A stretch of DNA of 64,000 nt from Diacronema lutheri (Eukaryota > Haptophyta > Pavlovophyceae > Pavlovales > Pavlovaceae), in NCBI GenBank assembly GCA_019448385.1, contig JAGTXO010000001.1:2356001-2420000 (forward strand), written 5' to 3'. Of the stretch, positions 12,762 to 44,598 are shown piece by piece; position 1 is the stretch's first letter, and the number at the start of each line of letters is the position of its first letter. Under the pieces are notes generated by a model. That model saw only the letters and a program-made list of their open reading frames with translations. It did no database searches and had not been told where the DNA came from. The translations under genes and the position numbers were made by a program.

Positions 12762-15324
12762 TCAGATCATCTGGAAGGTCGCCGGCTGCCCGGCGCCGAC
12801 GTGCACCGGCAGCCCGGTGCGCTCTGCGCGCCACGGCCGCGCGCCACCAGCGGCGAGCGCGACGAGCGCGACGAGCGCGAAGACGCCCACGCTGGCGAGC
12901 GTGGGCGCGCGCACGCCGCTCGCTTCCGGGTGCGCATGCGCCGGCTGCGCTCGCAGCAATTGCGGCGCGGCGGAGCAGCTGCGCGCCTGCGGCGCGCCGT
13001 CTCCGCCAACGCACTCGAGCCCCTGGCTTGCGTCGGCGTCGCACACGGCTTTGGACTTTGCGTTGAACGCGTGCTGCTTGCAGTCAAGAAGGGTGGCTTC
13101 CTTCCCGCCACACTGCACGTACTCGACGGGCAGCGCGGGCGCGCGCGACTTGTGCGCGGCAAAGACGCCCTGCGCGCGGACCGCCGCGTGGCGCGTGACG
13201 ACCGTGTTACGACCGCGTGACGAGTGGCGTCGCTCGCGCCCGTGCGCGGCGCGCGCGCGGGCTGGGGTGGCGCAGGCATGTACGCGCGGCCCGCGGAACG
13301 CATGGCGGTTGGAACGGCTGAAACGGTTGAAACGGCTCGCGCAGCTCCACAGCTCGCCACGTTCGCGCATGGCGCGAGGACGGCGGGTGGAAGGGCCGAG
13401 GCGGCAAGGCGCGCGCAAGCTGGGCGCGCCGCGCGTGTGCGCCGTGCAGCTGCGCACTGCGAGCGCACGCCCACGGATCCGACTGCACCCAACCGGACCT
13501 GACCGGACCTGACCGGACCGGACCGGACCGGACCGCCCCCCTCCCAAGCAGCGCCACACCCACGTCGCGCCGCGCGCTCCAACACCGCCGCCACGCGAAC
13601 CGGCCCGGGCGCGCGCGGCGCGCGCGCGGCGGCGCGCGCGCATACCGCCGCCTCCTCGAAGCCAAGCTGCTTGCACGCAACGTTTGCCGCCTTTCCGGAC
13701 GTTACCGAGCCAGCGCAGAGCGAGCTCCAATGCCCGTCCACGTATGCGAGCAGGCTGCCCCTGGGAAATGATGAGAGGGTAAGCATCCCCTCGGACGCGG
13801 AGCACGGCGGCGCGCCCGTGCCCGCGCCCACGACCGCACCTGCGCCCACGCCCACGCCCACGTTTTCGCCAGCGCCGAGCGCACCGCCCGGGCCGCTCGT
13901 GCCATGGCCGCCGTTGACGGCAGCGGGCGAGCGGTTGTTGGCAACGCCGAGCGCGACGAGGGAGCCAATGATTGCGATCGGCACGACGGCAAGCAGCATC
14001 ACGAGCGCACTGCGCGCGGACGCACCGTCGGCGGTTCGCGCCGCATCGCGCGGTGCGTGCATGCATGCGGTTGGTTCGTTGGTCGCGGGCAATGCAAGCC
14101 GTGCCGTCGGGTGGGGGCAGGGTGGGGGCAGGGTGGGGATAGGGCGGGGGTAGGGTGGGGGTAGGGTGGGGGTAGGGTGGGGGTAGGGTGGGGGTAGGGT
14201 GGGGGTAGGGTGGGGGTAGGGTGGGGGTAGGGTGGGGGTAGGGTGGGGGTAGGGTGGGGGTAGGGTGGGGGTAGGGTGGGGGTAGGGTGGGGGTAGGGTG
14301 GGGATAGGGTGAGGATAGGGTGGGGATAGGGTGGGGGTAGGGGGGGGGGGGGTAGGGTGGGGATAGGGTGGGGATAGGGTGGGGATATGGTGGGGGTAGG
14401 GTGGGGGTAGGGTGGGGGTAGGGTGGGGATAGAGGGGAAGGCAGAGGGCGGCGCGCGACGCGCGGCACACGGCGCGCGGTGCTGCGCCGCGCCAGTGCGG
14501 TGAGCGCGCCTTGGGCCACTCAGGCGCGCCGCGCAACGCAGCGCGCACGGCGTGTGGAACATGGTCTGCTTCAAGGGTCGCTCGCCGGGGCACTTGCGCT
14601 GCTTGCCGCATGCAGCACTCTTGATCTCGAGGTACACGCGCCCATCAGCCGAGTGCGGGTCGATGTTGAAGTTGACCGTCGGCTTGAATTTGGCCGGCGG
14701 CGCCACAACCGGCTTGGCCACCACGGCGCCGAGTGGCGCGTGCGCCGGCGCGGCGGCGGCCGCGGCGGGCGGCAGTGCGGGCGCGGCCAGCGCAGCAGGC
14801 ACGGCGAGGGCGGCAGGCGCAGCGGGTGCGCCTGGCGGAGGTGGAGCGGCGGGCACGGCCGTAGCAACCACTGGCGCGGCGGCCTTGGCCGCGGCCGTCT
14901 TGGCCGCCAAATTCGCCGCGAGCACCGACGCCGAAGCCAACGTGCCGGGCGGCGCGGCGAGCGCGGGCTTGGCCTCCGCCGGCGTGGCCGGCGCGGTCAG
15001 GTTCAGGAACTCGTTGAGCGGCGCGCGCTCGCTGGGCGGCAGCTTGTCGGCAACGAAGCGCAGGTAGCTTTGCAGCGTGGCCACGCGCTCGTTGATTGCG
15101 CTCTCGGTCGAGAGGCCAAAGATCGACTTGGGCGCGGGGAAGCGCATGCCGGCGAGCGCGGGGATCCGCTCATGCAGCACGAGGAAGTCGTTGTAGCGGT
15201 GCTTGCTCTCCACGGCCACGCCGCCCGCCTCGTGCACGATCGTGTACTCCCGGTACTCCCTCTGCCCCGGCGGCTTCACCACGTCTGATGCAGCGATGCG
15301 GATCGTCGCCGTGGCCTCCGACAT
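12762..15324 (-). CDS. PX domain - membrane helix - SRCR domain protein (three exons)
   Basis: Exons 15324-14549, 14009-13646 and 13169-12762 give 515 residues. Residues 1-120 form a PX domain: KHRYNDFLVLHERIPAL, MRFPAPKSIFG, then LQSYLRFVADKLPPSERAPL, typical of phosphoinositide binders. An alanine/proline-rich linker follows. Exon 2 starts in a membrane helix (LVMLLAVVPIAIIGSLVALG), then GMLTLSSFPRGSLLAYVDGH with cysteines and CKQLGF, the first half of an SRCR fold. Exon 3 completes it (VQCGGKEATLLDCKQH, GLEC) and ends with another hydrophobic segment. The first intron has donor GTGCGC and acceptor GCGCAG with matching phase 2; the second is GTATGC to GCGCAG, phase 0. Each domain is clear; that PX and SRCR halves form one protein rests on the phase match. 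The alternative is two genes, the SRCR one starting at ATG 14062. Confidence 0.6.
13170..13645 (-). other. Intron with GACCG repeats
   Basis: A 476-nt intron that splits the SRCR domain between QLGFEEAA and GVFAAHK. It contains a run of GGACC-type pentamers (plus-strand 13494-13540) and a short AACGGTTGAAACGG repeat near 13310. Confidence 0.55.
14104..14432 (+). repeat. G-rich 11-bp minisatellite inside an intron
   Basis: About 29 tandem copies of TAGGGTGGGGG on the plus strand, with single-base variants (TAGGGTGGGGA, one expanded G run near 14340). It fills most of the 539-nt first intron (14010-14548) of the PX-SRCR gene. On the coding (minus) strand the repeat has no stop codon in any frame, so it can masquerade as a proline-rich coding region. 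Runs of three to five G could form quadruplexes. Confidence 0.9.
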
Positions 15325-15744: not shown

Positions 15745-16596
15745 ATGGCCGCCCTTTTTGCCGTCGTGAGCGCTCACGTGGCCGTCGTGAGCGCGGCCGC
15801 GAACGGCGTCACGCGCCGGCAGTTCTCGCTCAGCCCGTTCATCGGCTCGACGACGCTGTCGCCGCTCGCGCTCGCGCTCGCACCGTCGCCCTCGCGCGGA
15901 GACGGCGGCGGCGCGGGCGCGGCTGCCGTCGCGGCCGCGCCCGACGGGCAGTGGCGCTTCACGCCCGGCGCCGACTTCGCGTCCTCGCCGCCGCTCGTGC
16001 GCACGCACGCCGACGAGGTGACGTACAAGTACGCCGGTCCGCGCGCCTCCGACTGGAAATACTTCAAGGCAGGCCTGACCGTCGATCCGGTGCGCCTCGC
16101 GTCGCTCGCGGCGTTTGACACGCCCGAGGGCGTAGGCCGGCGCATCGTGCAGGCTGAGATGGCCAAGGGCGGGATCCTCGAGGTGAGCCTCGAGGAAGCG
16201 GTGGATGAGCCTCCCTTCTACCAGCTGCGCTATGTCGTCGACTCGGCGGAGCGCGGCAATACTCCAGTCTCTCGAGGTGCGCTCGCTCGTCGCCGGCGGC
16301 TGACTCCGTGTTCCGACTTCCCACCCCGCGCCGTCATCCAATCGCATCGGCGCGCGCGCCCGGCCCGGCAAACGACTGTGTGCCGACGGTGCGCGACACG
16401 CGCCGCACGAGCGACGAAACAGAAGCCTGGGGCAGCCCAAAAGTGGTTGTTGAGCATGGAGGCATGTGCGGCGACGCCATCGACTGCTCCGCCGTCGCGC
16501 TCGCACGACAGCGTGACACGTGGCTGGCCGCACCCCCACCGCCCTGTACCTCGTCGAGGACCTCGTAAATCGATTCGCGGAGCTGCGCCCAGATGA
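15745..16596 (+). CDS. PsbP-domain thylakoid lumen protein (C-terminus uncertain)
   Basis: The protein begins with a signal-peptide-like MAALFAVVSAHVAVVSAA, then TRRQFSLSPF and a hydrophobic stretch, a twin-arginine type lumen signal. From about residue 70 it reads as a PsbP fold: DWKYFKAGLTVDPVRLASLA, FDTPEGVGRRIVQAEM, EPPFYQLRYVVDSAE. PsbP-family proteins support oxygen evolution or photosystem assembly in the lumen. Homology stops near 16262; the last 50 or so residues of a normal PsbP domain (the strand after YxxExxVES) are missing. The frame continues to a stop at 16596 with arginine-rich sequence that does not look like PsbP and overlaps the end of the opposing gene. A GTGCGC donor occurs at 16281, but I find no convincing next exon. 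It may be truncated or have a diverged end. Confidence 0.6.
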   Translation: MAALFAVVSAHVAVVSAAANGVTRRQFSLSPFIGSTTLSPLALALAPSPSRGDGGGAGAAAVAAAPDGQWRFTPGADFASSPPLVRTHADEVTYKYAGPRASDWKYFKAGLTVDPVRLASLAAFDTPEGVGRRIVQAEMAKGGILEVSLEEAVDEPPFYQLRYVVDSAERGNTPVSRGALARRRRLTPCSDFPPRAVIQSHRRARPARQTTVCRRCATRAARATKQKPGAAQKWLLSMEACAATPSTAPPSRSHDSVTRGWPHPHRPVPRRGPRKSIRGAAPR

Positions 16597-19500
16597 GCTC
16601 GAGATCGGGCGGCTTGGTGTGCTCGTCCTTGCGCAGCATGTTGATCGAAGCCTTGATCGCCTCGACCTTGACCGTCTGCTCGTTGGGCAGGCTGAGCAAC
16701 TCGCCCTTGATGCGGTGCAAGTCCGTGCGTGTGCGCGCCCAGTCGTCGCTTCGCGCGTCGATCGACTCAACCAGCCGGCGGACGACGTCAATGAGGTCCG
16801 ACTCGAGCCCGCGTGCAAGCTGCTGCTCCTCGACGAGCCCCTTGCTCGTGCTCGCGTCGTCCAGCCCAAAGTGGTCGGCCCAGACGATCGCGACGCTCTC
16901 GAGCACGGCCGCCCTTTTAAACGCGCGCTTGGGCATGACGGCGTGCGCGCGCGCCTTGTACCGCTCGCAGTCATCTTTCGAGTCATTGGCCGAGCGGACG
17001 AAGAGCAGCGCGTTGCGCACTTGCTCTCGCGAGAGCTGCGCCTTCACCTGCTCGAGCGCCTTGGAGCCCGAGATCGTCTTCAGCGAGCGACACTCGCTCT
17101 GATTAATCATGAGCGGCGCGAAGGGGCGGCGCGCGCATTGGAAGGCGCGCAACAGGGCGCGCACATTGGGAGGCGCGCAAGAGGGCGCGCGCATTGGGAG
17201 GCGCGCAAAAGGGCGCGCGCGCGACGAGCGCGGTGTGCGGATGCGATGCGGCGCGGGCGCAGCCATCGCGCGCGCGGGCGCGCGCGCGCGGCGCGCGCAC
17301 GAGCTCGAGGTTCTCGTCGGCGATCACGACGACCTTGCGCTCGCCCGCGTCTCGGACGATTTGAAGCAGCCGCTCACCAAATGTGAGCATCGATTCGTCA
17401 GAGTCGCCGAGGACAATAACGTTCGCGGGCTCGACGCCGATCACGCTGAAAATCTTCCGCAGCATCGCGCGCTGCACCTGCGAGTCATCAATCCCGATCC
17501 CGATCGTGCCGGGCGGGACGGCAAAACGCAGCGCCTGGTCGGCGGTTACGTGCAGGTGCGTCGGGCACGAGAAGCGGAACGTGGTCTCGGCGTGCGCGAA
17601 CTCAATGGAGCACGAGCCGCGCAGCGCCTCGCAACATTTCTTCATCACCCACGCACCATCGCCCGCCGAGGTGCTCGTCACCGAGCCCGAGCCAAACGCG
17701 CAGCTCAACACGCCGCCATCGTCCGCACCCACGCTCGCAGCATGCAGCCGCGTGCCCTTGGTGAAGACGAGCGACGGGTCGGCGAGCGCAACGAGCCGCG
17801 CGTGGTCAATCCCGGCCTCATTCACCACCGAGAGCGTCAGACTGCCGTCCGCATACCGCGCAGCCGTGCGGATCGGCGCGCCCTTCTTCCCGTACTTGCA
17901 CGCATTGCTGATCGCCTGGCGGCGCGGGCGCGCGCGGTCGGCGGTCGGCGACACGGACGCACGCGGTATACGGGTTGGCGGCGCGGGCGCGCTCGCTCGG
18001 CAGTGGGCGGGGCGCGCGCGCAGGGGAGGGGCAATCCCTGCCTCGCGGCGCGGCGTGGCGGGGAGGAGCAATGCCTGCATCGTGGCGCGGCGTGGCGGCG
18101 CCGCACGTTCCGGTAGATGTGGTAGACGAGGCGCGGGTCGATGCTGAGGGCGGGAAGCGGGTCCGGGTCCGTCACGATCACAAAACGATCGGCGCGGTCG
18201 ACGTCGAGGCACGAGTGGAGCAGGTCGACGAGCGCGACGGCCTCGGGCTGCGCGTCGTACACACCGTGCACGAGCTCGCGCGCCATCGCCTCGGCGAGCA
18301 CCGTATTGAGCGTGCGCTCAAGCTTCGAGGCCATGTCCGCAAGCCCACGGAGCGTGAGGCGCGGCAGCGTCACGTCGGTCGTGCCGGCCGCCTCGTTGGC
18401 CGCGCGCTCGTGGAGCTCGCGCAGCGTCTCGCAATCGGCCATGGCGGCAAGCACGCCATTCTTCACCTCGTGCCGCGTGAACCGATTGGCCTCCTCCATC
18501 TTCTGCCGCGAGACCTGCTGAGCGATCGCCTCCTTGGCGGCCTTCTCGACGAGCAGCGCCGTCTCCGCCTCGTGCAGCGCGACGCGGTCGGTGCAGTCGC
18601 TCACGACGATGACAAGGACGGTCTCGCCGGGCGCGAGCGTCATATTGACCTGCAGATGCAGCGATGGCGCATCGCCACAGCGCAGCACCCGCCACGCGAA
18701 GCTCGACGTTGCGTGCGAGAGCGCGTCACGCCACGCCAGGTTGACGACGCGGTCGATCGCACCCTCCTCCGTGCCGCTGATGATCTCCTTCTGGTTGGCG
18801 GGCGTGGCGCTGGCGTGGGCGGCAACGGGCCACGAGTCATCGGGCATGAGCTCATGCGCGCGCCACGTGAGCCACGGCAGCCCCGCGGCGCCGAGCAGCT
18901 GGACGAGGCTGGGCGACGCGAGCGTCTGCACGCGGCGCGACGCCTTCTGGCCGTCGACGAGCGTCATGCGCGAGATGATGAGTGTGTCGGGCGAGGCGGA
19001 CCAGATGACGGACATGGACTCGCGCACCCACAGCGAGAGCTGCCGCTCGTACTGGTCCGTCGCAGAGAAATGCGCGTACTTGATCTTGTGCGCGTAGAGC
19101 ATCTTTGCAGCAACGTCGAGCATGCAGTCGCCGATGAACGGCCACGATGGGTGGTTCCACGCCGCGGGATGCCACACGGCGGCGAACCAGCTGAGGCAGT
19201 AGTGCACGACAAACCTGCGCGCGCGCCGCCGCCTCGCTCAGTCGGCCGCCGGCCGCGGCGCGCGCGCGTGCGCGCGGAGCCGCGCGCGCGTGCGCGCGGA
19301 GACGCGCCGACGCGCGAAGCGGTGCGCGAGCACGCGCACGCACCATGTCCACATGACCGCGCACGACTTGATGAGGTCCCGTCCGATGCGCATGCGGAGC
19401 ACGCGCTCCATCTCATCTGCCGAGCGCGCGTCGGGCAGCCTGCGGCACGCCATCACCTTGTCGTGCATGCGCGCCATAATTGGCAAGTATGTGGCGAACG

Positions 19501-20122
19501 AGAAGGCCACGACCGCCAGCCACACCCACACGTTGGCGCAGAACGGCAGGATCAGCCCGCACACGGTGCTGAGCCCCATGAGGAGCGCGATCCAGACGGG
19601 CGTGCGCATACCCTGCGCGTCCACCGCTTCAATGCAGAACGTCATCACGAACGCGAGCGCCGTCCACTAGGCCCAACGCGCGAGATGCTGGCGCACACCG
19701 ATGATTGGGTCGATCACGATCGGCATCGGGACCGTCGCAAGAATCAGGTTGGACGTCGCAGCGATGACGTGGACGGACATGATGACGAGGGAGATGTTGC
19801 GTTCGGCGGGCGTGCGATGCGTGTGCATACTCATCTCGATGGCTTTGAGCGCGACGGACGACCACAGCACCGCCGCCGCCGCGCCGGCCGCGACGGCCTC
19901 CTCGGGCTTGAGCGCGGTCACATGGTCGGAGGCGTACCAAAAGGAAAGTGCAAGCAGCAGTGCATAGCAGAGCGGCGCGCCGAGCGTGAGGCGTACGGTG
20001 ACCTGATTGTTGTCAAAGAGGTTCACCGAGCGCGCGGCAAAATCCGGAAACGACTCCGTCGCCGTGCGCCTCACGCCCGGTCGAGGTTCATCGCGCCCGG
20101 GTGAGGCGCTACCCATCGTCAT
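16334..20122 (-). CDS. Rhodopsin - histidine kinase - receiver - HPt fusion (four exons, one in-frame TAG)
   Basis: Exons 20122-19344, 19214-18107, 17915-17301 and 17098-16334 join with matching phases (2, 0, 0) into 1088 codons including stop. Residues 1-310 contain eight hydrophobic helices. The last, IGDCMLDVAAKMLYAHKI, carries the rhodopsin Asp-x-x-x-Lys motif, with Lys297 as the retinal-binding residue. An extra helix before the seven is typical of enzyme rhodopsins. A PAS-like sensor region follows, then the kinase H-box NRFTRHEVKNG (His508), N-box AISNACKYG, and an ATPase domain. A receiver follows (GIDDSQVQRAMLRKIF acidic pair, phospho-acceptor Asp829 in VVVIADENLE, Lys in VMPKRAFKR), then an HPt domain with DLHRIKGELLSL (His962). 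I infer a photoreceptor whose light state sets flow through an internal phosphorelay. An in-frame TAG (19667-19669, codon 152) interrupts helix 4. Confidence 0.75.
17099..17300 (-). repeat. Intron with about 27-bp tandem repeat
   Basis: The third intron of the rhodopsin-kinase gene splits the receiver domain (ADENLEL / SECRSLK). Plus-strand 17120-17215 carries about four diverged copies of a unit built on GCGCATTGGGAGGCGCGC plus AAGAGGGC. The acceptor is ATTAATCAG. Confidence 0.6.
17916..18106 (-). other. Intron with two 37-bp direct repeats
   Basis: The second intron of the rhodopsin-kinase gene (191 nt, donor GTGCGG, acceptor GCCAG, phase 0), placed just before the kinase N-box. The segment at about 18022-18094 (plus strand) is a 37-bp unit repeated twice with a few mismatches. 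Confidence 0.6.
19667..19669 (-). other. In-frame TAG at the presumed Schiff-base counterion position
   Basis: Coding-strand context is HLARWA, TAG, WTALAFVMTF. Microbial rhodopsins have Arg-Tyr-x-Asp/Glu-Trp/Tyr at the start of this helix, so the stop falls where the counterion should be. The frame is the same on both sides (no intron needed). GAG to TAG is a single change. Possible readings: sequencing error, recent inactivation, stop read-through or editing. A 30-nt GTGCGC...CCTAG mini-intron is formally possible but far shorter than any other intron here. Confidence 0.7.
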
Positions 20123-20630: not shown

Positions 20631-21818
20631 TCACGTGCGCCCCGCGCCGAGCAGCGCCGCGCTCGCGGCGACACGCGAACCGCCGACGCACAAGCCATGC
20701 GCGCGTTCCGCCAGATCTGGGTCGGCGCCGGACGCCGCGGCGAGCGCGGGCGCGACGGCGACGACGGCGTGCGCTGGCGCCACGTCGTAGCACGCCTGCG
20801 CCGCCTCGGTCGCCGCTTGCGCGCCGAGCAGCGCGGCGACAAACGCGACGGCGACAGGCTTGCCCGCGCCAAGGATGACAATGGCCGGCCCCGGGCAGAC
20901 GCCGGCGAGCCCCCAGCCGAGGCCAAAGGTTGCCGAGCCGACAAGCAGCGATGGCGTGACGTCGCGCGCGGTGGGCAGCTCGAAGGCGCGCGCAAGCAGC
21001 GGGCGTGACCGGCGCAGGATCAGGCCAAAGGTGCACACGTTGACGGCGAGCGCGCCGCCGAGCACGCACGCCAGGGTCGGGTCCCACCCGGCGCGGCTGA
21101 ATGGATCGAGGAAGCCGAGCACGCGCGACGGCCTCGCCATGCCGCTCACGCTCAGGCCGACGGCGAAGAGCGCGCCCAGCCCCGCGCTGAGCGCTGCGTC
21201 GACGTGCTCGCGCGGCGCGAGCTCGTCCTTGCCGTTCGCCGCGGGCGTGCGGCCGCCGATGAGGACGGCGAGCGCCATTGCGGCCGCCGCCGCGACGGCG
21301 CCCGAGAGAGCGGCGGACGGCGGCGCGGGCGTAGTGAGCGCGGGACGGAGGCCGAGCGCGCCGATCGTGCTCGCCGTGATCACGCCCACCGCCATGAAGG
21401 TGCACACCGCGACGAGTGATCGGCGGGAGAAGCGCGGAAGCCCGCACACGCCGTGCCCCGACGTGCAGCCCGAGCCGAGCTTGGTGCCCGCGCCGACGAG
21501 CGCGCCGGCGACGAACGCGGCGAGCGGCGAAGGGTCTTGCGCGTCCGCCGCAAAAGCCTCGGGCAACAGCCGCGCGACGAGCGCCGACGCGACGCCCATG
21601 CCCGCGAGGAAGGCGACGCGCCAGTGGCGCTTCTCGGGCGCGAGGAACGGGCTTGAGAGCGCGGCGCAGATGCCCGAGATGCCGGTGATGCGGCCGCGGA
21701 GTAACAGATGCGCCGACGCGGCGAGTGCTAAACAGGCGCCGCCGAGCAGCCCGAGGAGCGCGGAGAGCGTCGTCGATTGCGGTGTGATGTGGAGCGGCGC
21801 GATGTGGACGTCGCGCAT
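20631..21818 (-). CDS. YeeE/YedE-family sulfur (thiosulfate-type) transporter
   Basis: 395 residues from ATG 21818, with about nine or ten hydrophobic helices. Both halves of the inverted-repeat fold show the family hallmarks: GAGTKLGSGCTSGHGVCGL in the first half, VLGFLDPFSRAGWDPTL in the middle and GLGWGLAGVCPGPA in the second. The cysteines in GSGCTSGHG and AGVCPGPA are the residues thought to relay thiosulfate or sulfide through the membrane in bacterial YeeE (TsuA). The cellular membrane cannot be told from sequence. The frame is open upstream of the ATG, so an extra N-terminal exon or leader is possible. It lies head-to-tail with the rhodopsin-kinase gene. Confidence 0.8.
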   Translation of the reverse strand: MRDVHIAPLHITPQSTTLSALLGLLGGACLALAASAHLLLRGRITGISGICAALSSPFLAPEKRHWRVAFLAGMGVASALVARLLPEAFAADAQDPSPLAAFVAGALVGAGTKLGSGCTSGHGVCGLPRFSRRSLVAVCTFMAVGVITASTIGALGLRPALTTPAPPSAALSGAVAAAAAMALAVLIGGRTPAANGKDELAPREHVDAALSAGLGALFAVGLSVSGMARPSRVLGFLDPFSRAGWDPTLACVLGGALAVNVCTFGLILRRSRPLLARAFELPTARDVTPSLLVGSATFGLGWGLAGVCPGPAIVILGAGKPVAVAFVAALLGAQAATEAAQACYDVAPAHAVVAVAPALAAASGADPDLAERAHGLCVGGSRVAASAALLGAGRT

Positions 21819-22327
21819 CCCGTCCACGCTCGAGCTCACGATCAGCGAAGTTTCCGTGCCGTCGCGCGGCTCCAGTGATGCAAGTTGAGGCGAGGGCCGT
21901 GCGACGTCACAGTCACGAACACTGCGAGTCTGCGAGTGTGCGGCGTCCGAACACGGACACACCTGTGGGCCTGGGCCAGTGGGCCTGCGCCTGGGCCCAG
22001 GCCCGCCAGGCCCAAGCACCCACGCCCGCCAGCCCGCAGCTGGGCCGCAGGCCACCGTGACGGCGTGAGCCGCAAGTCCGTCACCGTGGCGGCGGCCGTG
22101 GGCACCGACGCGGACGCTCGAGGCGCACATGGCGCCGCGCCACGCGCCGGCGGCGCAAGTGAAGCCGACGTCCGGACAGGGCGACACCGGGAAACGCCCC
22201 GCTGAGGACGCGCGAGTGGAGCCTCCCAGGCGCGCGCAGTTTTTGGCCGCTGGCAGGTGGCAGCGCAGGCCGACGCTGCGAGCGCGCGGCACGACCGCAC
22301 GCGAGTTGTGCTCGAGCGATCGGCGTG
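21819..22327. other. Intergenic stretch
   Basis: 509 bp between two minus-strand genes. A GGGCCTGGGCC-type low-complexity patch lies at 21965-22060. No gene was recognised. Confidence 0.4.
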
Positions 22328-22966
22328 TCAGGCGCAGCGCAGCGTACCGTCCGACAGCTTGGCGGCCACAAGCGAGCACACCTTGCCCAGGCTGAGCTCG
22401 CCGGCGTACATGTCGTTCGTGAGGCAATTCTTTTTGCCGTACGTGCATGCGAACGCCAGGTTCTCGACGAGCACGCGGTACTCGTCGGCGAGCGCGGCAG
22501 CAGGGGCGGAGAGCAGGCCCGGACCGAACGCGCCCTTCGCCGCGGCCTCCACCTCCGCGGCGCTCGGCGGCGCGCCCTCGCGCAGCGTCGAGGGCAGCGC
22601 GCCGTGCGCGAGCGCGCCGCCCGAGCGCGCAAAGCCCGCAGCGAGGAGCATCACGCAGAGCGTAGTGGTGCCAAAGCCAAAGACAAAGAGGGAGAGGGCG
22701 CAAAGCACTTCGACCACGAGCGCGAGCGAGTGTGCCATGCGGATCGAGCGGTGCGCCTTTGCGAGCGCAGAGGGCGCGGTCGGCGCGGCGCGCGGAGCGG
22801 TGCGGTGCGCGGCAGGGTGCTTTCCCTGCGGCGGCGGCTTGGCCGCGGCGGGACTGGCTGTCGTCGAGCGCGGGCGAGCCGGCGTCGCGGCGCTCGACGG
22901 CGGCGCCCCGCTGCTCCGCATCCTCGCCTCCCGCTCCGCCGCCAACGCTTTGAGGTCGAGGCTCAT
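22328..22966 (-). CDS. Hypothetical membrane protein
   Basis: 212 residues from ATG 22966 (MSLDLKALAAEREARMRSSG). A basic, proline/alanine-rich N-terminal third is followed by a long hydrophobic stretch (LALVVEVLCALSLFVFGFGT and on), enough for one or two membrane helices. A soluble C-terminal part contains DEYRVLVENLAFACTYGKKN and three cysteines (one in FACTYGKKNC). I do not recognise the family. The reading is supported by normal residue balance in the C-terminal half. Confidence 0.55.
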   Translation of the reverse strand: MSLDLKALAAEREARMRSSGAPPSSAATPARPRSTTASPAAAKPPPQGKHPAAHRTAPRAAPTAPSALAKAHRSIRMAHSLALVVEVLCALSLFVFGFGTTTLCVMLLAAGFARSGGALAHGALPSTLREGAPPSAAEVEAAAKGAFGPGLLSAPAAALADEYRVLVENLAFACTYGKKNCLTNDMYAGELSLGKVCSLVAAKLSDGTLRCA

Positions 22967-23423
22967 GGTCCCCACACTACTCTTTCTTGCGCGCCTTCTT
23001 TGATCTTTCCCAGAGCAGCCATCATGGCTCGAGGGCCCGGCGTCGTGCTCCGCGCCAAGCTTGCCGCGCTGCACGCGCGCGGCGCCGGCTGCCCGTGCTG
23101 CACGCCGCGCCCGCTCATCCCTGGGCGCACGCCGCCGGTCGACGCCAATGACGACGGCACCTGACCTATGCACGAGCTGGCCGCCAATGGCACCTGACCT
23201 ATGCGTGGAGTCGCCGACGCGCCATCGGCGGCCGACGACGATACTACCCGGCGAGCGCAGCGTGCGCGCTCGTGGCGCGCCGAGAGATCGGCGCGCGGGT
23301 GCATCGAGACGCGTCCATTCAAGGCAAAGATGCCGGTGCGCACGTCACGCCAGGCGTATCGTGGCTGGCTGGCGCTTTGGGTCCAACTAGTGGCGACGCG
23401 GGCGCGGCGCTCGCCAGAATGTG
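22967..23423. other. Intergenic stretch
   Basis: 457 bp between the hypothetical gene's start and the anoctamin last exons. GGCACCTGACCTATG occurs twice at 23156-23210. No gene was recognised. Confidence 0.4.
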
Positions 23424-26439: not shown

Positions 26440-29400
26440 TCACGCGTTCGGCTGCGTGAGGATGCACGCCGAGCGCAACACCCACCGCTGCGCCGGCTCG
26501 TCGGAGCGCAGGTCGACGTCAAAGATATAATTCGCTGCGCCGCGCCGCGGGCTCTTGAAACACGGGCACGCAAACGCGGTGACGCCTGCAGCCGGGGTCG
26601 ACGCGTCGGCCGGCTCGGCGCGCGCGGTCGGCGTCTCGGCGCGCTCGACGCTCTCGCGCGCACCGCCCTCGCGCGGCGCGGGCGCGCCGTGCGCCGCGCC
26701 GCCGACCGGTGCGCCCGCCGCCGCGCCCGCCGCAGCGACCGACGCGGAGACGTGCACGATCGGCAGCGACGCGCTGAGCGCGCGCGGCTGCGGCTCGGCG
26801 AGGCGGCCATGCTGCCGATCCCACCGGCAGCCGTCAAGGATGAGGCCGTGGATGAAGATGCCCTCGTCGAGTGGCTTGCGCGCCTGCGCGTCGTCGCGGT
26901 CAAAGGCCATCACCTTGGTCACGATGGCTGCCGAGTCAAGTGTCCACCCATCTTTAGCGCGCCTTCTCACCACCTCCTGCACCGCGGCCGCGAGGAAGGC
27001 CTGCGGGTTGCCGAGCGCGCCGAGCGAGTATGAGGTTGGCCGGTGCCCACGAGCGACGGCGGCGAGTTGCTCCGTACGCTGCTGCAGCGAGAGCAGCCAC
27101 GGGCCCAGGCTCGAACCGCCGACATGCCGCGCGGCCGCCGCCCACTCGGCGGGCACTTGCGCTGCGCGGCGCGGCGTGCGGCACGCGGCGGCAGGCGGCA
27201 AGGGCGCGCGTCAGCGCGCACGGCGCGCGGCGCGCGTCGACGCACAGCGTGCGCACGGCGCACACACCGAGCGCGAGCGCGCCGAGCAACTCGGCGCTCG
27301 CGCTGCTGAGCTCGGCGCCGCTGTCGAGCGCCATGTGCGCCGTGCGCACGGACGACCGCATCTGCCAGAGCAGCGCGTCGAGAGACTCAATCTCGAGCAC
27401 GAGCGCGACGTTGAGCGGGCGCGCGCCGCCGAGCGCGCGAAGTGTGTTCAGCCGCTCGGGCGCAGAGAAGAGCGTCGTCGGCTGCCGCGCGAGCACCTCG
27501 CTCACCGCGCCGAGCGCGGCGAGCTGGTCTGCGACGCCGCTCGCAGCCGCGTTGGCCGCGCCGACGTGGCCGGCCGGACCGACGCCCGGCGCGCCGGCGG
27601 CTGAGGCGGCTGCGGCGTGGATCGACGCGAGTGCGTCTGCGCGCCGCGCGCAGGGTGGGCGCGGCACAAGCGCGGTGAGGGCGCGGTAGAAGGGCGGTAT
27701 GGGCGTGGCGCGCGGCGCCGGCCACGGCACGCGGCGCGCGGCACGCGGCGCGCGGCACGCGGCGCGCGGCGCGCGGCACGCGGCGCGCGGCACGCGGCGC
27801 GCGGCACTTGGCGCTTGGCGCGCGCACCGAGCGCGTCAGCCGCCACCTGCGCGCGCAACACGCCCTCGGCGTGCGCGCCGAGGCCGAGCGCGGCCGGGTC
27901 GTCGACGGCGGGCAGCGCGTCGATGGCAGCGTGAATTGCGGGCAGCTCGGTGCTGGCGGGCAGTGGGTAGGCGCGCGCGAAGGCAAAGTCCGGCTGCGCG
28001 AGTGCCGCGTGCAACCAGTGCCCTCCGACGGCCGCGACAATGCGCGCGTCGTGCGGGTCCATTGCGTGGCTGCCATGGTGGACCTCAAGCGCCACGTAGC
28101 GCAGCGCGTGCCAGCTGACGGGCGCGAGCCCGCCGCGCTTCGCCGCGCGCGCCGCGTCGGCCGCGAGCGCCGAGCGCGCAAACTCGAGCGCGGCGCGCAG
28201 GTCGGCATGCGTCCAGGCGTAGGGGGCCGAGAAGCCAAGGGTGCCGTACGCCCGACGCTCGCGCAGCGCGGCGTGGGCAAAGCAGAGCGCGAGCACGACG
28301 GGCCGCCATTGTGCGTGTGGCACAGCGTCAAGCGTCTCCTCCGTCACACACGCCGCGACCGCCGAGCGCAACCCGGCGCGCAGCCCGGCGGGCGGCTCGG
28401 CCACGAGCTTCACGGAGCTCTCCAACAAGCGGCGCGGCACGGCCGCGACCGGCTCGAGCGCGATCCACAGGCGGAAGCGGCGGCGCGCGCGCGCGCGCGC
28501 CGCCGCCGCGTCCGCCGCCGCGCCGTCGGGCAGCTCGACCAGCTCATCGCCGCTGAGAAGGGTGCCGCGCGCGTTGACGCGCGGGCGTGCGGGCGCGCGA
28601 TCGCCGGCCGTTACATACTTGGTGCGCACGCCGTTCGCCGAAGCGGCGCGCGCGCCAGCGGGCGGGCGCGCGGCGAGCGCAGAGGGCGGGCGCGTGAGGG
28701 CCGACGCGAGCGCCGGCGGCGACGGCGCGCGCGCCGTGAGCGCCGCCGACGTCGGGCGGCGCGCAAGTTCGGTCGTGCCCTCGTTGTCGCCGTCGGCGTT
28801 CGCGTCGGCGTCGACGTCGGCCACGCCGTTGGCCACGCCGTGGGCCACGCCAGCGGCGCTCACGGCGCGCGGCAGGTCGTCGCGCGCGTCGTCGCTCGCG
28901 AACGCATCGGCGGCCGCGTCGGCGGCGACCATCGCGTCGAGCTCACGCAGCCACGCGGGCGCAAGGTGCGCGGCCGTGATGAGCAGCCAGTGGCCGTGCT
29001 CGCGGCACTCAGCGATGGCGGCGCGCGCGCGCGCGCCGAGCTCCTCGCGCATGCCGAGCGTGACGAGCTCAACGGCGGCGAGCTTGGACGCGCCGCGCAC
29101 CGCCGCCACCGAGTCGAACCCGCCCACCTCGAGAATGAGAATCGGCGCGCCGCGCCCTGCGTCCGCCTCAACCGCCGCCCACTCGCGCGCGGTGTCGAGC
29201 GCGTGCGCCGCGCCGTTGGCCGCACCGCCGAGCGCGCCGCCGTCGCCAAGCCCGAGCGCGAGCCCGCGGCCCGCGAGCACCGCTGCGCCGAACGGCAACG
29301 AGCCCGCCGGCGGCGGCTCGGCGTGCCGCTTGCCGAGCACGGCGGCGGCGAACGCGCTCGCGGCCGCAATGAAACGGTCGGGGCGAAAGGCGCGCACGAG

Positions 29401-32400
29401 CAGCAGCCGCGCCATGGGCGTCGCGCGCTCGCCAAGCTCGGGCGGCAACATCGCCTCGGGCGCCGCAGCGTCGATCCACGCTCGCCACTCCGCCTCGCGC
29501 CGCACGACGGCCGCGGGCACGTCGGCGAGCTGCGGTTCGGCGGCGGCGGCCGTGACGACGCATTGCCACTGCGTCTCCGACAACCACGCGAACGGCGTGC
29601 GAGGCGCGGGTGCGTCGCCCTTGCCGGCGGCGCCGGCCTGCGCGCCTTCCGCGCCGCCGACGCCCGCGCCGCCACCCAAAGCGGCGCCCGCCGTTCCGCT
29701 CTTGCGCGCGGCGCGCGACCTGCGGGTATCTGCGACCGCGCGAGCGTTGGCCGCCGCTGCCGCAGCGTCGGCGCCGAGCATGAGCGCGCGGACGGCGCGC
29801 AGCGAGACGGTGTTCGAGATGAGCGCGACGCGCAGCGCGAGCAGGATTGGCCACAGCCGCCGGTGCGCGCCGAAGACCGCGCGGCACGCGCTCACGGACG
29901 CCGCGAAGGTCAGCGTCTCGACGAGGTTGGCGACGCGGCGCGACGGCGTCGCGGCGCGCTCGGCGGCGACGATCGAGCGGTCGAGGAGGGCGAGGAACGA
30001 GCGCATGTCAAAGGAGTAGACCGTCGGCATCAGCGAGGCCATCTCCACGCCGCTCTGGTAGAGCGCGGCGCCGCGCGCGGCGAGTGGCACGTAGTCCTGC
30101 CGCGCGGCCTCAATCCGCTCGGCCGCGGCCGCCGCGTCGCGCTCGCGCTCGCGCGCGCTCGCGGTGAGGGTCTTCGTGGCGTCGAGCGCGTCGAGCACGG
30201 CCTCGTCGGCCAGGAGCGACGTCGAGTTCGACGCGAGCAGCTCGAGCACGCGCGCCTCACCTTCGCGCAGCTCGGCGCGCAGCTCGAGCTGGTGCGCGAG
30301 CAGCTCGGTGCGTTCGGCCTCGAGCTCGGGCCGCTCCGCGCGAATGATCCGCGCGAGGAAGTGCTCGACGAGCGCGGCGGCGGTGAGGGAGAAGTCGACG
30401 ACGCACACCTCCGCGTGCAGCTCGGCGGAGAGCTCGGGCGCGGCGAGCGGGCACAGGATGTAGAGCCGGAAGGCATCGCTCCATTGCAACTCGACCGCGC
30501 CAACGCAGATCGCACGCGCTCGCCCGTCCGCGCCGCGCGTGAGCACGTCTTTGGCGAGGAGCGAGCGGAGGAGCGGATCGAGACGCTCGGGCGCGCCGTC
30601 GAGCACGAGCGGCGTGCCGCTCGGCACGCACGCCTCGAGCGCGCGCAGCAGCCGGCGGCGCGCGAGCGCGGCGCCCGGCGCGTTCGGCGCGTGCGCGTTA
30701 AGCACGCATGCGCGCGCGCCCTCGGTTGCGAGGATCCATGCGCGCGCCTGGCCCTGCGGATCGATGCAAAACGGCCAGCGGTGCGTCGCCGTGACGATCG
30801 CGCCGTTCTGCACCGAGAGCGCGTCGGTTGGCAGCCCGCGCATCGCCCAGCGCGCGCGCTCGTCGTCGGTGGCGAGCAGCGCGACGATCCCGTCCATGCC
30901 GAGCGTGTCCGCGACGGGCAGCGTCGACGGGCCCGACGCGTTGGCGGCGAGGCGGTGTGTGAGCGTGTTCGCGCGCAGCTGCGTGTCCGCGTACGGGCCG
31001 AGGTACGTGACGAGCGCGGCGGCGAGCGCGGCGTGCGCGGTGAGCTGCACGAGCGCGTCGGCCGACCGCTCCGCATCGCGCGTCCAGCGCGTGCGATCGG
31101 CGTCGAGCTGTGCGAGGAGGCGCGAGGCGAGGTGGAGGCGGCGCGCGGTGGTGCGCGCGTCGTCGTCCAGCACGACGCGCTGCACCATCGCGCCGTCAAA
31201 TTGCGCCTGCCGCGTCTCCACCTCGCGCTGCGCGTCGCCGAGCACGCCGTCGGCGCGCGCAAGCCGCGCGCGCGCGCGCGAGAGCGCCTCGTCCGCGAGC
31301 TCGAGCTGCGTGAGCATGGGCTCCACCTCGCGCTGCGCCTCGCCGTACGCTGCCATCGCGCGCACCCACTCGCAAATCCCGCCCACGTTGCCCGACGTGC
31401 GCACCGCGTTCGCGGCGGTGATGTCCGGTGCGATCAAGTACGGGTACAGCAGCTCGAGCGTCTCCTCGCTGACGAGCGCCTTGTTGTAAGCGAGCAGCTC
31501 GTCGAGAAAGCGCGCCTCGGAGAGCATCGCGAGCGTGCAGCGCCACGAGTCAAGCGGCACGAGCGTCGGCGGGCGCGGCGCGTGGATTTCAAAAAGCGGC
31601 TCGAGGGGCCGTCGTCGGAGGATGAGAACGCAATCGAAGAGGCGACGCAGAAGCTCGGGTGGCGAGCGCATCGTCTTGAGCGCCGAGATGTCGCGCGGCG
31701 AGATCTGCGCGATCGCGCGCTCGGCCTGCTCGAGCACCGGCGTCCTCTTCGCCAGCTCGGCGCGCACCGCGCCGCGCCGCGCCTCCGCGCGCGTCGTCTC
31801 CTCAGCGCACGCGGCGCGCTCGACGAGGACCTCGCGTCGCTTGCGCTCGGCGAGCGTCGTCGCGCGCACAATGTCGTTGAGCAGCGCGCTCGTCTTCTCG
31901 TGCTGCAGCGCGCTCGCCTTCTCCTTCTCGTCGAGCTCCGCGTGGATCACGTCCGCGTCCTCCGACGCGCCCTGCAGCTTGAGCAGGCCGGCGGCGAGCG
32001 CGCGCCGCGCGCTGAGCAGGGCAGTCGAGTGCCGTGCGTACAGCTCGGCGAAGTGCTCAACAAAGGCGAGGAACGTCTTCAGCGACGTGTGCGCGCGCGC
32101 CCGGCGCGCGCCGGCGCGGCGCTGCTCTGCCGCGAGCCGGCTCATCATTTGGTGCGCCGCGGCGAGGTGCGAGACGAGGCCCTCGCGCGCCTGCTGCTCG
32201 GCCGCCTCCGCCGCCTCGGCCAGCTCGTCGTCAAGGTCGTCCGCGCGCGCGCCGCGCTCGCGCAGGCCGTCGGCGCCGCCGCCGCCGCCCAACGCCGCGG
32301 CGCTCGGCGCGGCGAAGCTGCGCAGCGCGCCCACAGACAGGCTCGCCGCGCCCATCGGCGCGCCCACGCCCGTACCCACGCCAGCGCCAACTCGCGCGCC

Positions 32401-32923
32401 GAAGTCGCCATCGACGCCATCAACGCCGTCGAGCTGCGCGCGCGCGAGCACCGCCGCGGAGGCTCCGCTCAACGCGAAGCCGTCGAGGAGCCTGGATGCA
32501 ACGTCGACGAGCGCCACCTCGGGCCATGGCAAGAACCACTCCACGTGCGCCTCGCCCAGCAGCGCGGGGTGCGCCGCCGCGCGCGCGAAGAGCGTGCCGT
32601 CCGCGGGCGACGCGCCCACGACGACGTGCACGCGCGCGCGCGCGCGCTCGACGAACCACGCCCACAGGCGCTCGTCGCTCGGCTGCGCGCCCTCGTTCAC
32701 CGTAACGGCCGCGTCCTGCTCGGCGAGGTACTCGGCGCGCTCCGTCGCCATCGCGGCCGCCGCGGCCTTTGATGCGCCGGCCGGCCCGGCCTCGCCCGCG
32801 GCCGCGCCGCCAAACAGACCCGTGGGCAGGAGGGACGCGAGCGGGCCGGCTGCGGCCGCTGGCTTGCCGCCGCCACCAGCGCCAGCTGACGCGCCGCCCA
32901 AATTGACGCCGCCACCGCCGCCA

Positions 32924-32955
<32 letters not shown>

Positions 32956-35900
32956 GCCACCGCCTCGACCACCCACGGCGGAGGGGTCCGGGCGCAACCA
33001 TGCGCCAAAGTCAGTTACACGCTTCTGGCGCGCGACCTGCTCCTCCACGAACGGCGCCTTGCACGCGCGCACGATCTGCGCAACCTCCTCCGCGGAGAAC
33101 AGCCCGCCGCCCACCGCGCACGAGGAGACGCCAAGCTGTGCGGCGCTCGCAGCGCCGGCCGCGCCCGCGCCGGCCGCGCCTGCGCCGGCCGCGCCTGCGC
33201 CACTGCCACCACCGCCAGCGGTCACCGCGCCGGCCGCCGCGCCACGCGCCGCCGGCGCGGGTGCATGCGAGAGGAGGAGCGCGTCCGCGAGCATCTCGCC
33301 CGTCGTGAGGAAGGAGTGCACCTGCTCGAGCCAGCACGCGTCGCCAATCTCATCATTTAAGAGCACGAGCGCGTGACTTGACCCGTTCAGCCCCGCCGAG
33401 CGCAGGGCGCGCCGCATCTCGTCGAGCAGAGGGGCGAGCGGCAGCGCGGGCTGGGCGCGGCCTGCACCGGCGCTCACGCCTGCGCCTGCGCCACCGCCCT
33501 CGCCACCGCCCTTGCCACCGCCGCCGCCGCCGCCGCCGCCGTCACTTTCAAAGTCCGGGGGCGCGCGCAGCCGGACAAGCTCGCACTCGGCGACGAAGAC
33601 GGCAAGGCGCGCGATCGACCGCTTGCCCGAGCCGCCCAGCCCGACGAGCAGCGCGTGGCCGCGCGGCGCGCGGAGTGCGCGCACGACGCGCGCGAGTTGC
33701 CGCAGCACGTCCTCGACGAAGATGAGCCGCAGGTCGGAGAAGCCAGGGTCGGCGCGCGAGCCGAGCGACGCGTTGAAACGCGTCTCGCACGCGCGCGCCA
33801 CCTCGCCCAGCTCGTCCACGTCGCGCGTCGGCTTGTAGGCTTGCCTCTGCACGCGCTTGGCCGCGTGCCTTCCCGCCTGCACCGCCCAGCCCGAATCGTC
33901 GCCGCCGCCCGACGACGTCACGCCCGCCTCGCTCGACGCGAGGTGCGACCAGAACCACGGCTCGTCGCCCAAGACCGCGTCGGCGGTGGAGAGCGATGCG
34001 ACCGCGCCAAGCGATGTTCGGATGTCGCCGACGACCGCGTCGCGGTCGGCCTCATCGGAACAACGCGCGCCGAGCACGCCTGCCGCTTCGTGCGCCCACA
34101 GCCCGAGTGCCTGGCTCTCGTTGATCACGACGCCTTCGATGCGCGCGCAGAAGAGCGCGTGGAAAAGGCGGCAGATCTCGCGCATCGAGCAGGTGTAGTG
34201 CGGGTTGTCGGCGGTCGGCCGCAGCCGCTCCGCGACGCGCGCGCACACGTCGAGCGTGAGGTCGACGAGCATCGGCGCGAGCGCCTCCACGTCTGGCTCG
34301 ACGATTTGAACGCTCACGACCGTTCCGTCGAGGAAGAATTCAAACACCGGTACGAAAGCCGTCGAGAGCGCTCCAACGGACGCCGGCACGACCGCGACCG
34401 GCGTGAGGTGGCGCAGCGCGCGCGGCTCGACGAGCGGCTCGAGCCGCGACGCGGCCCACGCCGCGGTCGCCGCTGCCGTCTGCGCCGCCGCCGTCCCCGC
34501 CTGGAAGCCCGCCGGACTCACCGGACTCGCCAGGCCGGCGCGCTCGGCGTGCGCGAGCGCGGGCGCGGTCGCGAGGAGGCGCACGCCATGCACGGGCCAG
34601 CGCTCGGCCGCGTTCTCGAGAGAGAAGAGCGCCCTGCTGTCGAGCAGCTGGCGCGCGAGCTCGGAGCACGGCGCCGTCCCATACTTGTCGCGCGGCGCCG
34701 CGGAGAGGTCGTCAAGCACAAGCAGGAACGACGCGCGGCCGCGACGCGCGCCGTACGAACGTCCCTTCTTCCGATCGAGCTGGCGCTCGAGCGCGCGCTG
34801 CAGCGTGGCGGGCGCGCTGCCGCCGCACAGCGGAAAGTAGCCCCACGCTGCCTCCATCTCCTCCAGCCCGCGCGCGTGCGCGAGCGCGAGCGCCGTCTTC
34901 CCGACGCCCGCGCCGCCGACGAGCACGGGCGAGCGGCCTGCCTCGGCGAGGAGCTGCAGGACCGCCATCGTGCGCACCGTCTCGGCTGTCGGCACGAGCA
35001 TCGTCGGGAATGCGTCGGCAAGCTCAGGCGGTGCGAGGCCGTTTGGCGGCCTCCACTCCGGCGTGAGTCCGGACCACGCCTGCCACTCGCCAGTGACGCT
35101 CAGCGCATAGTCAAAGACAGTCAGTCGCGCAGCGCCCAGCGAAGACAGCGCGTCGGCGCCGGCTGCGGGCAGCACGCCCGCGCGCATGTTCGCTCGGAGG
35201 AATGCGTCAAACTTGGCGCGGTCGCGCGCGTCGAGCACGCCGCCGATCGACATGACGAGCGCGCACGCAAAGTAGCGCTCGATCACGCCGTCGTCCGCGT
35301 CGTCGTCCGCGTCGAGCCGCGCGAGCTGAGCGCCGACGAGTGAAACGACCGCGCTCGCGGCCGCGGGCGCGCGCAGTGGGATCAACGGCACGCACTCGGC
35401 GTTGACGAAATCGAGTGCGCGCTCGAAGAGCGCGTGCAGCAGCGCGAGCGCCTTGTGCTGCACGCGCGCCGACGGGACGAGCGCGGCGAGCTGGCAGTTG
35501 GCAGCGGTGCGCCAGCCAAGCTCGCTCCCGGCCAAGACGAGGATTGCGACGCGCGACACGGTGGCGGGCGACGCGTGCGCCAAGCTTGTCGTTTCGAAGC
35601 CGAGTGTGACGTGCGGCCTGCGCATCCGGATCCGCTCGGCGGAAGGCAGCGTGAGCAGCATGTTGTCGTCCATCACCGAGTTGATATTTTCGACCCACTC
35701 GGCTTGGACAGGGCCGTCGAGCACGAGCCACGTGTGCCTGCGCGTGTCGCTGTTCGCGCGCCGCCACGCGGCGGAGAAGGCACCGTCCGTCCACTCGCCG
35801 GAGCGCGGGTCAACTACGCCGTGCAGGTGCACGAGCGACATGGTGCGCGGATAGAGCCGCACCACATCGTGCGGCACGCCCCAGCCCGCAGGCATCGGCT

Positions 35901-38900: not shown

Positions 38901-41176
38901 TCTGCACCGCGCACCACAGCTCGAGCGCTTCCTCGACGACGGCGAGGCGCTCGAGCCACAACGCCACCTGCTCGCGGAACGGCGCGACGTGCCGAGTCTG
39001 CGCGGTCATGAGCGCGAGCGCCAACTGCGATTCGTCAACCGCCGCGACGAGCGCGTGCGTCTCCGTGGCGCGTAGCTTGAGCGCGCCGCGCGCGCGGTAC
39101 GGCCCGATGGGTAGCACGGCATCGCCCCACTCGGCCGCGAGCGCGTGCAGCCGCGCCTCGATCGCATGCTCGCGGCGCGCGTCCTCGCCCAGCTCGGCGA
39201 CCTGCTCGGCAATGTTCGAGAGACCCGCGTCGACGAGCTGCGCGACGGTAAGGTCGGCGGAACCAAGCGGCAGCTTGCGCTTGAGCAGCGACATGACGAG
39301 CGTCCAATGGCGCGAGCGCATCACGGCCGAGCTCAGCTGCTGTAGCGGCCAGCAGAGCCACCGCCAGCGCGCGATCAGCGCGCCGAGCGCGCCGAAGACA
39401 GCCAGCTCGCGCATCGCTTTGCCGAGCGCGCCCGCGCGGGCCTCAAAACCGTCGAGCGCGTGCCAGATGGCCAAGGCCTCGCCGAAGAGCGCGCGCGACG
39501 CATTGCCCGCCTCAGCGGCGCTGCGAGGCACGTCGCCCCCCTCGGCGACGCCCCTGCCCGCGCCGCTCCCGCCGCTGACCGCGAGCGCCGCCGGGTCGGC
39601 CGCGGCGGCCGCGACCGTGGCCCACGGCGTCGCAAGCCACTTCGCCTCCGCCGCGCGCGCGTCGTCGAAAAGGTCATAAACGGTGGCGAGCGAGAGCATC
39701 TCGGCGCGGATCTCAACGAGGTCGGGGTACACGCTCGGCTCGACGCCGAAGAGCCGCTGCGCGCTCGCGAGCCGCTCGGCATGGCTCGCTTTGATGTTTG
39801 CGATCGTTTGGAATGCGCGCAGCCGGCCGAGCGCGTCGACCGGTTCAAGCCCGGGCAGCGCGGGCCCGTGCAGGTCGAATTCGGCGCGGTCGGCGGCGGT
39901 CTCGCCCTGCAGCTTGCGCACGTCGAGCTGCACGACCTTATGGAACGCCGCCTGCTGCGCGCGCAGGGAATCGCGCACGTCGGCGGCTGTGCGTGTCGTC
40001 CGCCGCCACGTGCTGCGAAGCTGCGCGACGGCCGCGGCCTCGGACGCGGGCACGCGCGCGCCGTGCGCGGCGAGGACGGCGTACATGTCCTCCACGGGCT
40101 CGAACAGCTGGTCGATCGTCCCGTCCAGCGCGCGCACCCCCGCCAGGTCGGACATTCGCTGTCGGAGCGCGTCGAGGTCGTTCACTTCGCGCTGGAGCGC
40201 GCGTTCGCGCGACGCGAGCATTGCCGTGATGCCGCGCAGCGCGCCGAACGCTCGCGCATGGAGCTCGCGCGTGTACGCTGCTTTCCATGCCGCGAGCTCG
40301 GCGCGGAGCGACGCGCGCAACGGCGCCGTCTGCAAGTCAAGGGCGCCAACCTGCACGCTTGCCGGCAGCAGCGAGATCCGAAGCTCGTCTCGCGAAATCT
40401 CCTGCAGCTTGCCGTCCACTTGCGCAGTGGTCGGCGCGCCCGCGAGGAAGCGCACGTGCGCGTCGTGCTTCGCGCCGTCCCACAGCCAGCTGAGCTCGCC
40501 CAGGCCGCGCAAGAACTCGTCCACCTGCCGGCTCGACCGCCTGAGCGCGCCGGACAAGAGTATGAGCGAGACGGCCATCGTGCGATCTGCCGCGAGCTCG
40601 TCAAACATCGTCGTCGCGCGCGCCACGCGGCTGACGCTCACCTTGCGCGTGATGGCGAGCACCTTGCGGCAGATTGAATTGAGCGCGTTTTGCGCGTCGT
40701 CGAGCGATGGCGACAAGGCCACCGAGGGCACCGCCAGATGCACGCTCAGCGCAAAGAGCACGCGCGGCGCGCCCGCGCCGCCCGCCGCCGTCGCCGCCGT
40801 TGGTGGTGCGCCGCTTGCGCTCACCGCGAGCCGCTGCTTGAGCTCGCGCAGCGTCTGGCGGACGGCGGTGGAGACGGCGGCGTACAGCATCTGCGCGTAG
40901 TGCTGCTTCACGTCGCGCATCGCCGACGCGCGCGGCTTGAGCAACGACCTCTCGGCGGCGCTCGACGACGACGGGACGGTCGGATGCTGCAGCGCGGCAG
41001 GCGACGTGCTTGCGTAGCTCCACACGAGCTCGACCAGGTCGGAGACAGCGTCGTCGACGATGCCGGCCTGCTCGACGAGGAACGCGCCGCACTCGCTGAT
41101 GTGCGCCTCCTGCCGCGCAATGAACTTTTCGAGCGTCGGCGCGCCGCTGGCGCGCGCACCGCCGCGCCGGGCGCTC

Positions 41177-41211
<35 letters not shown>

Positions 41212-44080: not shown

Positions 44081-44132
44081 CCACGATGCGAAAACCGAGT
44101 TTGGCCGTTCACTCCGCCATCATTGCACTCCG

Positions 44133-44529: not shown

Positions 44530-44598
44530 CAATACTAACGGCGCTTACGTCAGGACAGCGGGGTCAGCACCAGCTGCGGGGGAATCGAGTAGCCACCA

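Follow-up and report, generated by a model that had tools for sequence, protein, structure and literature searches.

Does the locus at 20122-16334 on the minus strand of the DNA analysed here, a 64,000-nucleotide stretch of contig JAGTXO010000001.1 (the window), encode a complete light-driven phosphorelay on a single protein chain, as a first-pass annotation had claimed? The gene model of that annotation was reproduced, with four exons and three GT-AG introns of 129, 191 and 202 nt whose phases match, an ATG at 20122 and a TGA at 16336-16334 (codon 1089), and the four residues it had singled out (Lys297, His508, Asp829 and His962) were recovered at exactly the same positions. The order rhodopsin-like module, kinase, receiver and HPt also remains the interpretation that best suits the encoded protein, but the word "complete" has to be withdrawn, since an in-frame TAG at codon 152 (19669-19667, minus strand) breaks helix C as assembled. 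We consider it probable, with some reserve, that the locus encodes a divergent and extended protein resembling the histidine kinase rhodopsins (HKRs), made up of a rhodopsin-like module, a long linker, a kinase, a receiver and a terminal HPt, and broken by one nonsense codon. The gene model, the TAG and the kinase ATPase domain are the directly observed parts of this reading.

All three donors of the gene read GTGCG, and the exon joins give MWTW/FVVHY in helix F, IYRN/AISNACKYG in the kinase N-box and ADENLEL/SECRS after the receiver Asp. The Pfam HATPase_c match (residues 619-747) spans the join at intron 2, which follows residue 629, and intron 3 contains a 28-nt tandem repeat (17128-17220), which suits non-coding DNA. 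TAG152 is the sole in-frame stop ahead of the TGA, and the residue numbers given earlier hold only if it is counted as a residue.

The rhodopsin-like module

To examine the membrane part, a profile was built from 77 prokaryote rhodopsins and five typed references (82 sequences; 114 prokaryote relatives were found and 80 loci kept). The pattern used to fetch the relatives held Tyr83, the Asp/Glu of column 85, Trp86, Thr89 and Pro91, so the conservation of these columns was imposed or partly imposed. The module aligned over positions 20-224 of 243 in a single register, in which RWA-stop-W coincides with the RYaDW motif and LDVAAK with the LDvxAK motif. D293 and K297 were aligned with D212 and K216 of bacteriorhodopsin, giving a lysine in the last helix with an aspartate four residues upstream. 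Among the retinal-pocket columns R82, W86 and W182 are kept, Y83 is W, Y185 is F, and D85 is the TAG.

When the columns were picked by conservation alone, 13 of the 30 most conserved matched, whereas no more than 9 did in any of 3000 local shuffles, and four of the top eight are kept (Arg82, Trp86, Trp182 and Lys216). None of the 3000 shuffles reached the real count for the top 8, 10, 15, 20 or 30 columns, and 6 of 3000 did so for the top 12. A pocket test, whose positions and allowed residues were chosen after seeing the alignment, gave 9 of 9 positions, with a best of 5 in 2000 shuffles. With the HMMER composition correction off, the module scored 10.1 bits. Among scored local shuffles, 7 of 1989 and 8 of 1970 attained that value, as did 4 of 1924 scored whole shuffles. 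On the same uncorrected score none of 105 controls came as high (best 3.8 bits); these were overlapping windows of other open reading frames (ORFs), many perhaps not genes, together with the reversed module. By the conserved-column and profile tests the candidate rhodopsin-type module exceeds chance, and a rhodopsin-type pocket is supported. Given an intact frame, the sequence makes it likely that this is a retinal protein with a predicted binding site at Lys297.

A considerable body of results weighs against this. No rhodopsin was matched by Pfam, NCBIfam, phmmer or PDB sequence search, whereas channelrhodopsin-2 (ChR2) by comparison matches 152 distinct PDB sequences (E up to 10), and ChR2, excluded from the profile, scores 100.3 bits on it. 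With the composition correction on, the module fell below the shuffle mean, at -4.8 with a 6-sequence profile and at -5.9 with the 82-sequence profile, where 2557 of 2957 scored shuffles were equal or better. Tyr83, Thr89, Pro91 and Pro186, invariant in the 82-rhodopsin profile, are not kept, and hhalign against five rhodopsins recovered the Lys helix alone (probability 0.2). Structure prediction covered exon 1 alone (the Lys helix is encoded in exon 2) and placed helices at 49-66, 73-101, 105-130, 141-170, 175-191, 198-227 and a split one at 235-245/248-258, with a mean pLDDT of 49.1. No rhodopsin appeared among the 50 Foldseek matches listed for this poor model, and at such a pLDDT its fold matches mean nothing, although the helices lie in the expected places; the eight-helix module of the first-pass annotation is a low-confidence prediction. 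Viral contigs searched with three parts of the protein gave 4, 0 and 10 pattern matches with no relative confirmed, and the rhodopsin alignment gave 1 pattern match there, likewise unconfirmed.

As a putative photoreceptor, this part has diverged much further than the earlier description implied: it lacks the helix-C residues Thr and Pro and the helix-F Pro, and none of the family models picks it up. That description's claim of a rhodopsin with an Asp-x-x-x-Lys motif holds for the motif and for the conserved-column and profile tests, but family models and PDB searches are blank. The same blanks, the four lost invariant residues, the uninformative AF2 model and the absence of profile signal under composition correction would all fit a different kind of multi-helix sensor, not a retinal protein, in which the Arg/Trp and Asp/Lys motifs arose by chance. 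We regard this as unlikely, because the conserved-column and profile tests beat both the shuffles and the window controls, and because the helix-C and helix-G motifs share one full-length register. The best-scoring control was the ORF at 44593-45849 (plus strand, 3.8 bits), a hydrophobic frame of 419 aa without a Pfam match at E 0.001.

Kinase, putative receiver and HPt-like regions

The next part of the protein carries a HATPase_c domain with an N-box, as expected of a hybrid histidine kinase. In the fragment HATPase_c scored 26.4 bits (E 1e-5), exactly the Pfam cut-off; in the full protein its 24.3 bits (E 4.4e-5) fell short of that value. When the 617 residues from DHp to the C-terminus were searched against PDB with matches accepted at E up to 10, the eight matches, the best at E 0.013, all proved to be bacteriophytochromes or histidine kinases; six of them are chains of 258-259 residues and apparently variants of one protein. 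The weak NCBIfam matches were mostly histidine kinases as well. Support for the predicted kinase is solid. The N-box, as first described, is backed by HATPase_c, and the putative H-box with His508 is read from the RHEVKN motif, with HisKA unmatched in Pfam. The motif residues of the putative receiver occur in the correct order (D772-D773, D829, S870 and K891), and a receiver profile gave a weak 4.9 bits, a score reached by 7 of the 2636 shuffles scored (3000 made).

Other observations speak against this half of the architecture. In the PDB kinase matches the aligned part of the query begins at residues 39-83, past His508, which is query residue 37. Neither the receiver nor the linker found a match in Pfam, NCBIfam or PDB, the linker having been checked for a PAS family. 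The PAS-like region of the first-pass annotation is therefore left without database support, and receiver Asp829 keeps its motifs and a weak profile signal but has no family or PDB match.

For the terminal region the sequence contains HRIKG, which has the form of the HxxKG motif, and an HPt profile gave 2.4 bits, a value that 16 of 2652 scored shuffles also attained. An alignment-free AF2 model of residues 912-1022 (mean pLDDT 66.7) showed helices at model positions 5-37, 43-58, 66-83 and 89-108, with His962 within the second. It was compared with 350,542 chains by Foldseek, and the first five matches, from three entries, were two chains of maize ZmHP2, two of the Arabidopsis AHP1-ARR1 complex and 4euk_B (probability 0.96-0.99, E 0.17-0.41). 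The lengths of the two AHP1-ARR1 chains presumably mark them as AHP1, and 4euk_B, titled only "Crystal structure", we take to be an HPt. Rice HPt proteins followed at ranks 8 and 10, with ZmHP2 recurring at 11 and an HPT domain from Shewanella at 15. On the opposite side, no sequence match to HPt was found in Pfam, NCBIfam or PDB, none of the 252 Foldseek matches reached E 0.001, and from rank 6 on BRIL-fused receptors and cytochrome c' were intermixed. The terminal HPt at His962 thus has its HRIKG motif and an alignment-free fold in its favour, but no sequence match and Foldseek E values of at least 0.17. We take the Foldseek result as support for, not proof of, a predicted HPt fold.

The in-frame TAG at codon 152

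In bacteriorhodopsin, Asp85 is the Schiff-base counterion. Alignment to the 82 rhodopsins places TAG152 on this very column, and the consulted part of PMC7693036 describes the residue as the Schiff-base proton acceptor. As 198 of 1100 codons (1087 sense codons, the TAG, the TGA and 11 past the TGA) lie one base from TAG, it is not wildly improbable for a TAG to land at this site; that it hit the counterion column is still striking. The adjoining gene, which matches RsmB/F methyltransferases, appears to end in TAG, so that TAG is probably read as a stop in this genome; it is the one TAG-ending ORF among 12 ORF ends listed. Reading TAG as a sense codon throughout is not favoured given this ORF end, though a further exon beyond it is possible.

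No full-length protein can come from the assembled copy unless the assembly has the TAG in error, another allele lacks it or it is bypassed. In an HKR, opsin, DHp, CA and receiver lie on one uninterrupted chain; here the frame stops at codon 152, and for this reason the protein is termed HKR-like and not a member of the HKRs. Two explanations deal with what becomes of the TAG and leave the architecture as it is, so that their odds overlap with those of the HKR-like reading itself. In the first, the architecture is the same but the copy at hand is a pseudogene of recent origin or a null allele, whose translation ends within helix C with nothing useful made. The apparent natural TAG stop of the RsmB/F gene agrees with this, and a base error would be unlikely if the assembly resembles that of Diacronema lutheri, which according to the consulted part of PMC8379373 was polished with ~150-fold Illumina reads. 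Yet no further in-frame stop has accumulated, the splice sites and all four catalytic residues are preserved, and GC content at third codon positions is coding-like on either side of the TAG (0.80 before it, 0.84-0.91 in segments after it). We rate this explanation as a serious one, a little short of an even chance. If the stop is real, the locus would be a clear case of light-sensor loss.

In the second, an assembly error or an allele absent from the assembly hides an expressed gene without the stop. Given the architecture, this too stops somewhat short of probable. It is suggested by the single stop in an otherwise open frame, which falls at a position whose side chain a functional rhodopsin requires, as judged from the alignment, from family knowledge and from the site's role in the consulted part of PMC7693036, while the absence of a second gene copy from the window argues against it. 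Far less credible is a 30-nt intron at 19696-19667, beginning with GTGCG and ending with TAG, which would splice the stop out: its length is divisible by three and it shares the GTGCG donor of the three other introns, but it is much shorter than their 129-202 nt, GTGCG is frequent in the window (3.9 per kb), and splicing would remove the Arg-Trp pair aligned to rhodopsin helix C. Least credible of all is UAG readthrough, by which some ribosomes would make a light-driven His-Asp-His kinase and others a short fragment ending in helix C, with spectral tuning dependent on the inserted residue.

Relation to known systems and genomic surroundings

How might the HKR-like protein act if its frame were intact? 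Light would isomerise retinal on Lys297, and helix movement passed on through the linker would raise or lower autophosphorylation of His508. Phosphate would then move from His508 to Asp829, to His962 and on to a separate response regulator, with His962 as the new element. The light effect on His508 and the step to Asp829 are proposed by analogy with Cr2c-Cyclop1, for which K298, H352 and D1092 mutants indicated that kinase-to-receiver phosphate transfer sustains output in the dark, while light switches output off, as proposed via kinase inhibition (PMC6284317, consulted in part).

A His-Asp-His relay on a single chain is shared with the bacterial tripartite kinases, in which histidine kinase (HK), receiver (RR) and HPt are joined. 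ArcB is an example of such a sensor kinase, and to our knowledge none of them is known as a photoreceptor. Closer in the sensory part are the green-algal HKRs or two-component cyclase opsins (Cop5/HKR1 and Cr2c-Cyclop1/Cop6), which in the consulted parts of PMC6284317 and PMC8006352 likewise combine an eight-helix opsin, a last-helix Lys, DHp, CA and receiver on one chain. The Lys298-His352 spacing of Cr2c-Cyclop1 given there is 54 residues, compared with 211 here (Lys297-His508). Unlike these proteins, the one described here shows no cyclase, ends in a putative HPt, and has a divergent pocket and an internal stop. Rhod-HK of Ostreococcus tauri (Ot-HKR) also joins a rhodopsin to a kinase as the proposed input of a phosphorelay, but its HPT is a separate protein in the consulted parts of PMC4343026 and PMC12704426, whereas here it would be fused.

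The earlier statement that a terminal HPt is unusual agrees with the literature as far as checked, again from parts of the sources. Algal HKRs are described as HK-RR or HK-RR-cyclase forms, eukaryotic HPt as a separate shuttle protein (PMC6944256), and a 2015 survey, whose coverage of haptophytes was not apparent, did not find the HKRRHPt type in eukaryotes (PMC4558063). Among the matches listed from the open-licence PubMed Central literature there was no rhodopsin kinase with a fused HPt; the main texts of PMC7693036 and of the Guillardia paper PMC7714340 make no mention of HPt or phosphotransfer, nor does that of PMC12558739 mention phosphotransfer, HPt not having been sought there. These results support the view that a fused terminal HPt is new for rhodopsin kinases, conditional on an intact transcript. 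Such a transcript would give a eukaryotic photoreceptor with its own phosphotransfer domain, which could signal directly to a soluble response regulator. Bacteria are known to have this layout, and the consulted part of the 2015 survey (PMC4558063) reports none in eukaryotes. If true, the reading would also extend the enzyme rhodopsins to an opsin too divergent for standard family models.

Table 1. Coordinates in the window of the exons, introns and putative functional sites of the rhodopsin-kinase gene.
Feature	Position	Strand	Content or basis
Exon 1	19344..20122	-	N-terminal extension, extra helix, helices A-E, first half of F
Intron 1	19215..19343	-	129 nt, GT-AG, within helix F
Exon 2	18107..19214	-	Rest of helix F, then helix G, PAS-like linker, DHp and first part of ATPase domain
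Intron 2	17916..18106	-	191 nt, GT-AG, within N-box
Exon 3	17301..17915	-	Remaining HATPase_c and receiver to just beyond acceptor Asp
Intron 3	17099..17300	-	202 nt, GT-AG
Exon 4	16334..17098	-	Receiver end, HPt, C-terminal tail, TGA stop
Helix C motif R149-W150-A151-stop-W153 (bacteriorhodopsin R82-Y83-A84-D85-W86)	19664..19678	-	Rhodopsin alignment
Lys297 codon, putative retinal Schiff-base lysine (LDVAAK)	19103..19105	-	Gene model and rhodopsin alignment
His508 codon, putative kinase H-box (RHEVKN)	18470..18472	-	Gene model
Asp829 codon, putative receiver phospho-acceptor	17316..17318	-	Gene model, motif reading
His962 codon, putative HPt phospho-acceptor (HRIKG)	16715..16717	-	Gene model
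HPt-like four-helix domain, residues 912-1022	16535..16867	-	Predicted structure and Foldseek

The 5' end of the rhodopsin-kinase gene is adjoined by a minus-strand ORF (20634-22976) with Sulf_transp and DUF6691 matches, presumably of the YeeE/YedE type. The window has a GC content of ~72%; the genome of Diacronema lutheri is given as 73.25% GC in the consulted part of PMC8379373, a similar value that makes haptophyte origin plausible. It also encodes FANCL, CDC20, anoctamin and a dynein heavy chain, which point to a eukaryote, and a weak match of the dynein to an axonemal coiled-coil model (E 0.0041) suggests that the organism is probably a flagellate. The dynein heavy chain domains occur in order in an open frame of 4972 codons (27505-42420, minus strand), and an overlapping upstream ORF (42317-44119) also matches DHC_N1; the dynein gene is giant, and its introns are few or in-frame. 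Two further tandem repeats were seen, one with an 11-nt unit, GGGTGGGGGTA, in 29.1 copies (14109-14432) inside an ORF beginning with a PX domain, and one with a 33-nt unit in 19.8 copies with 97% matches (57905-58557).

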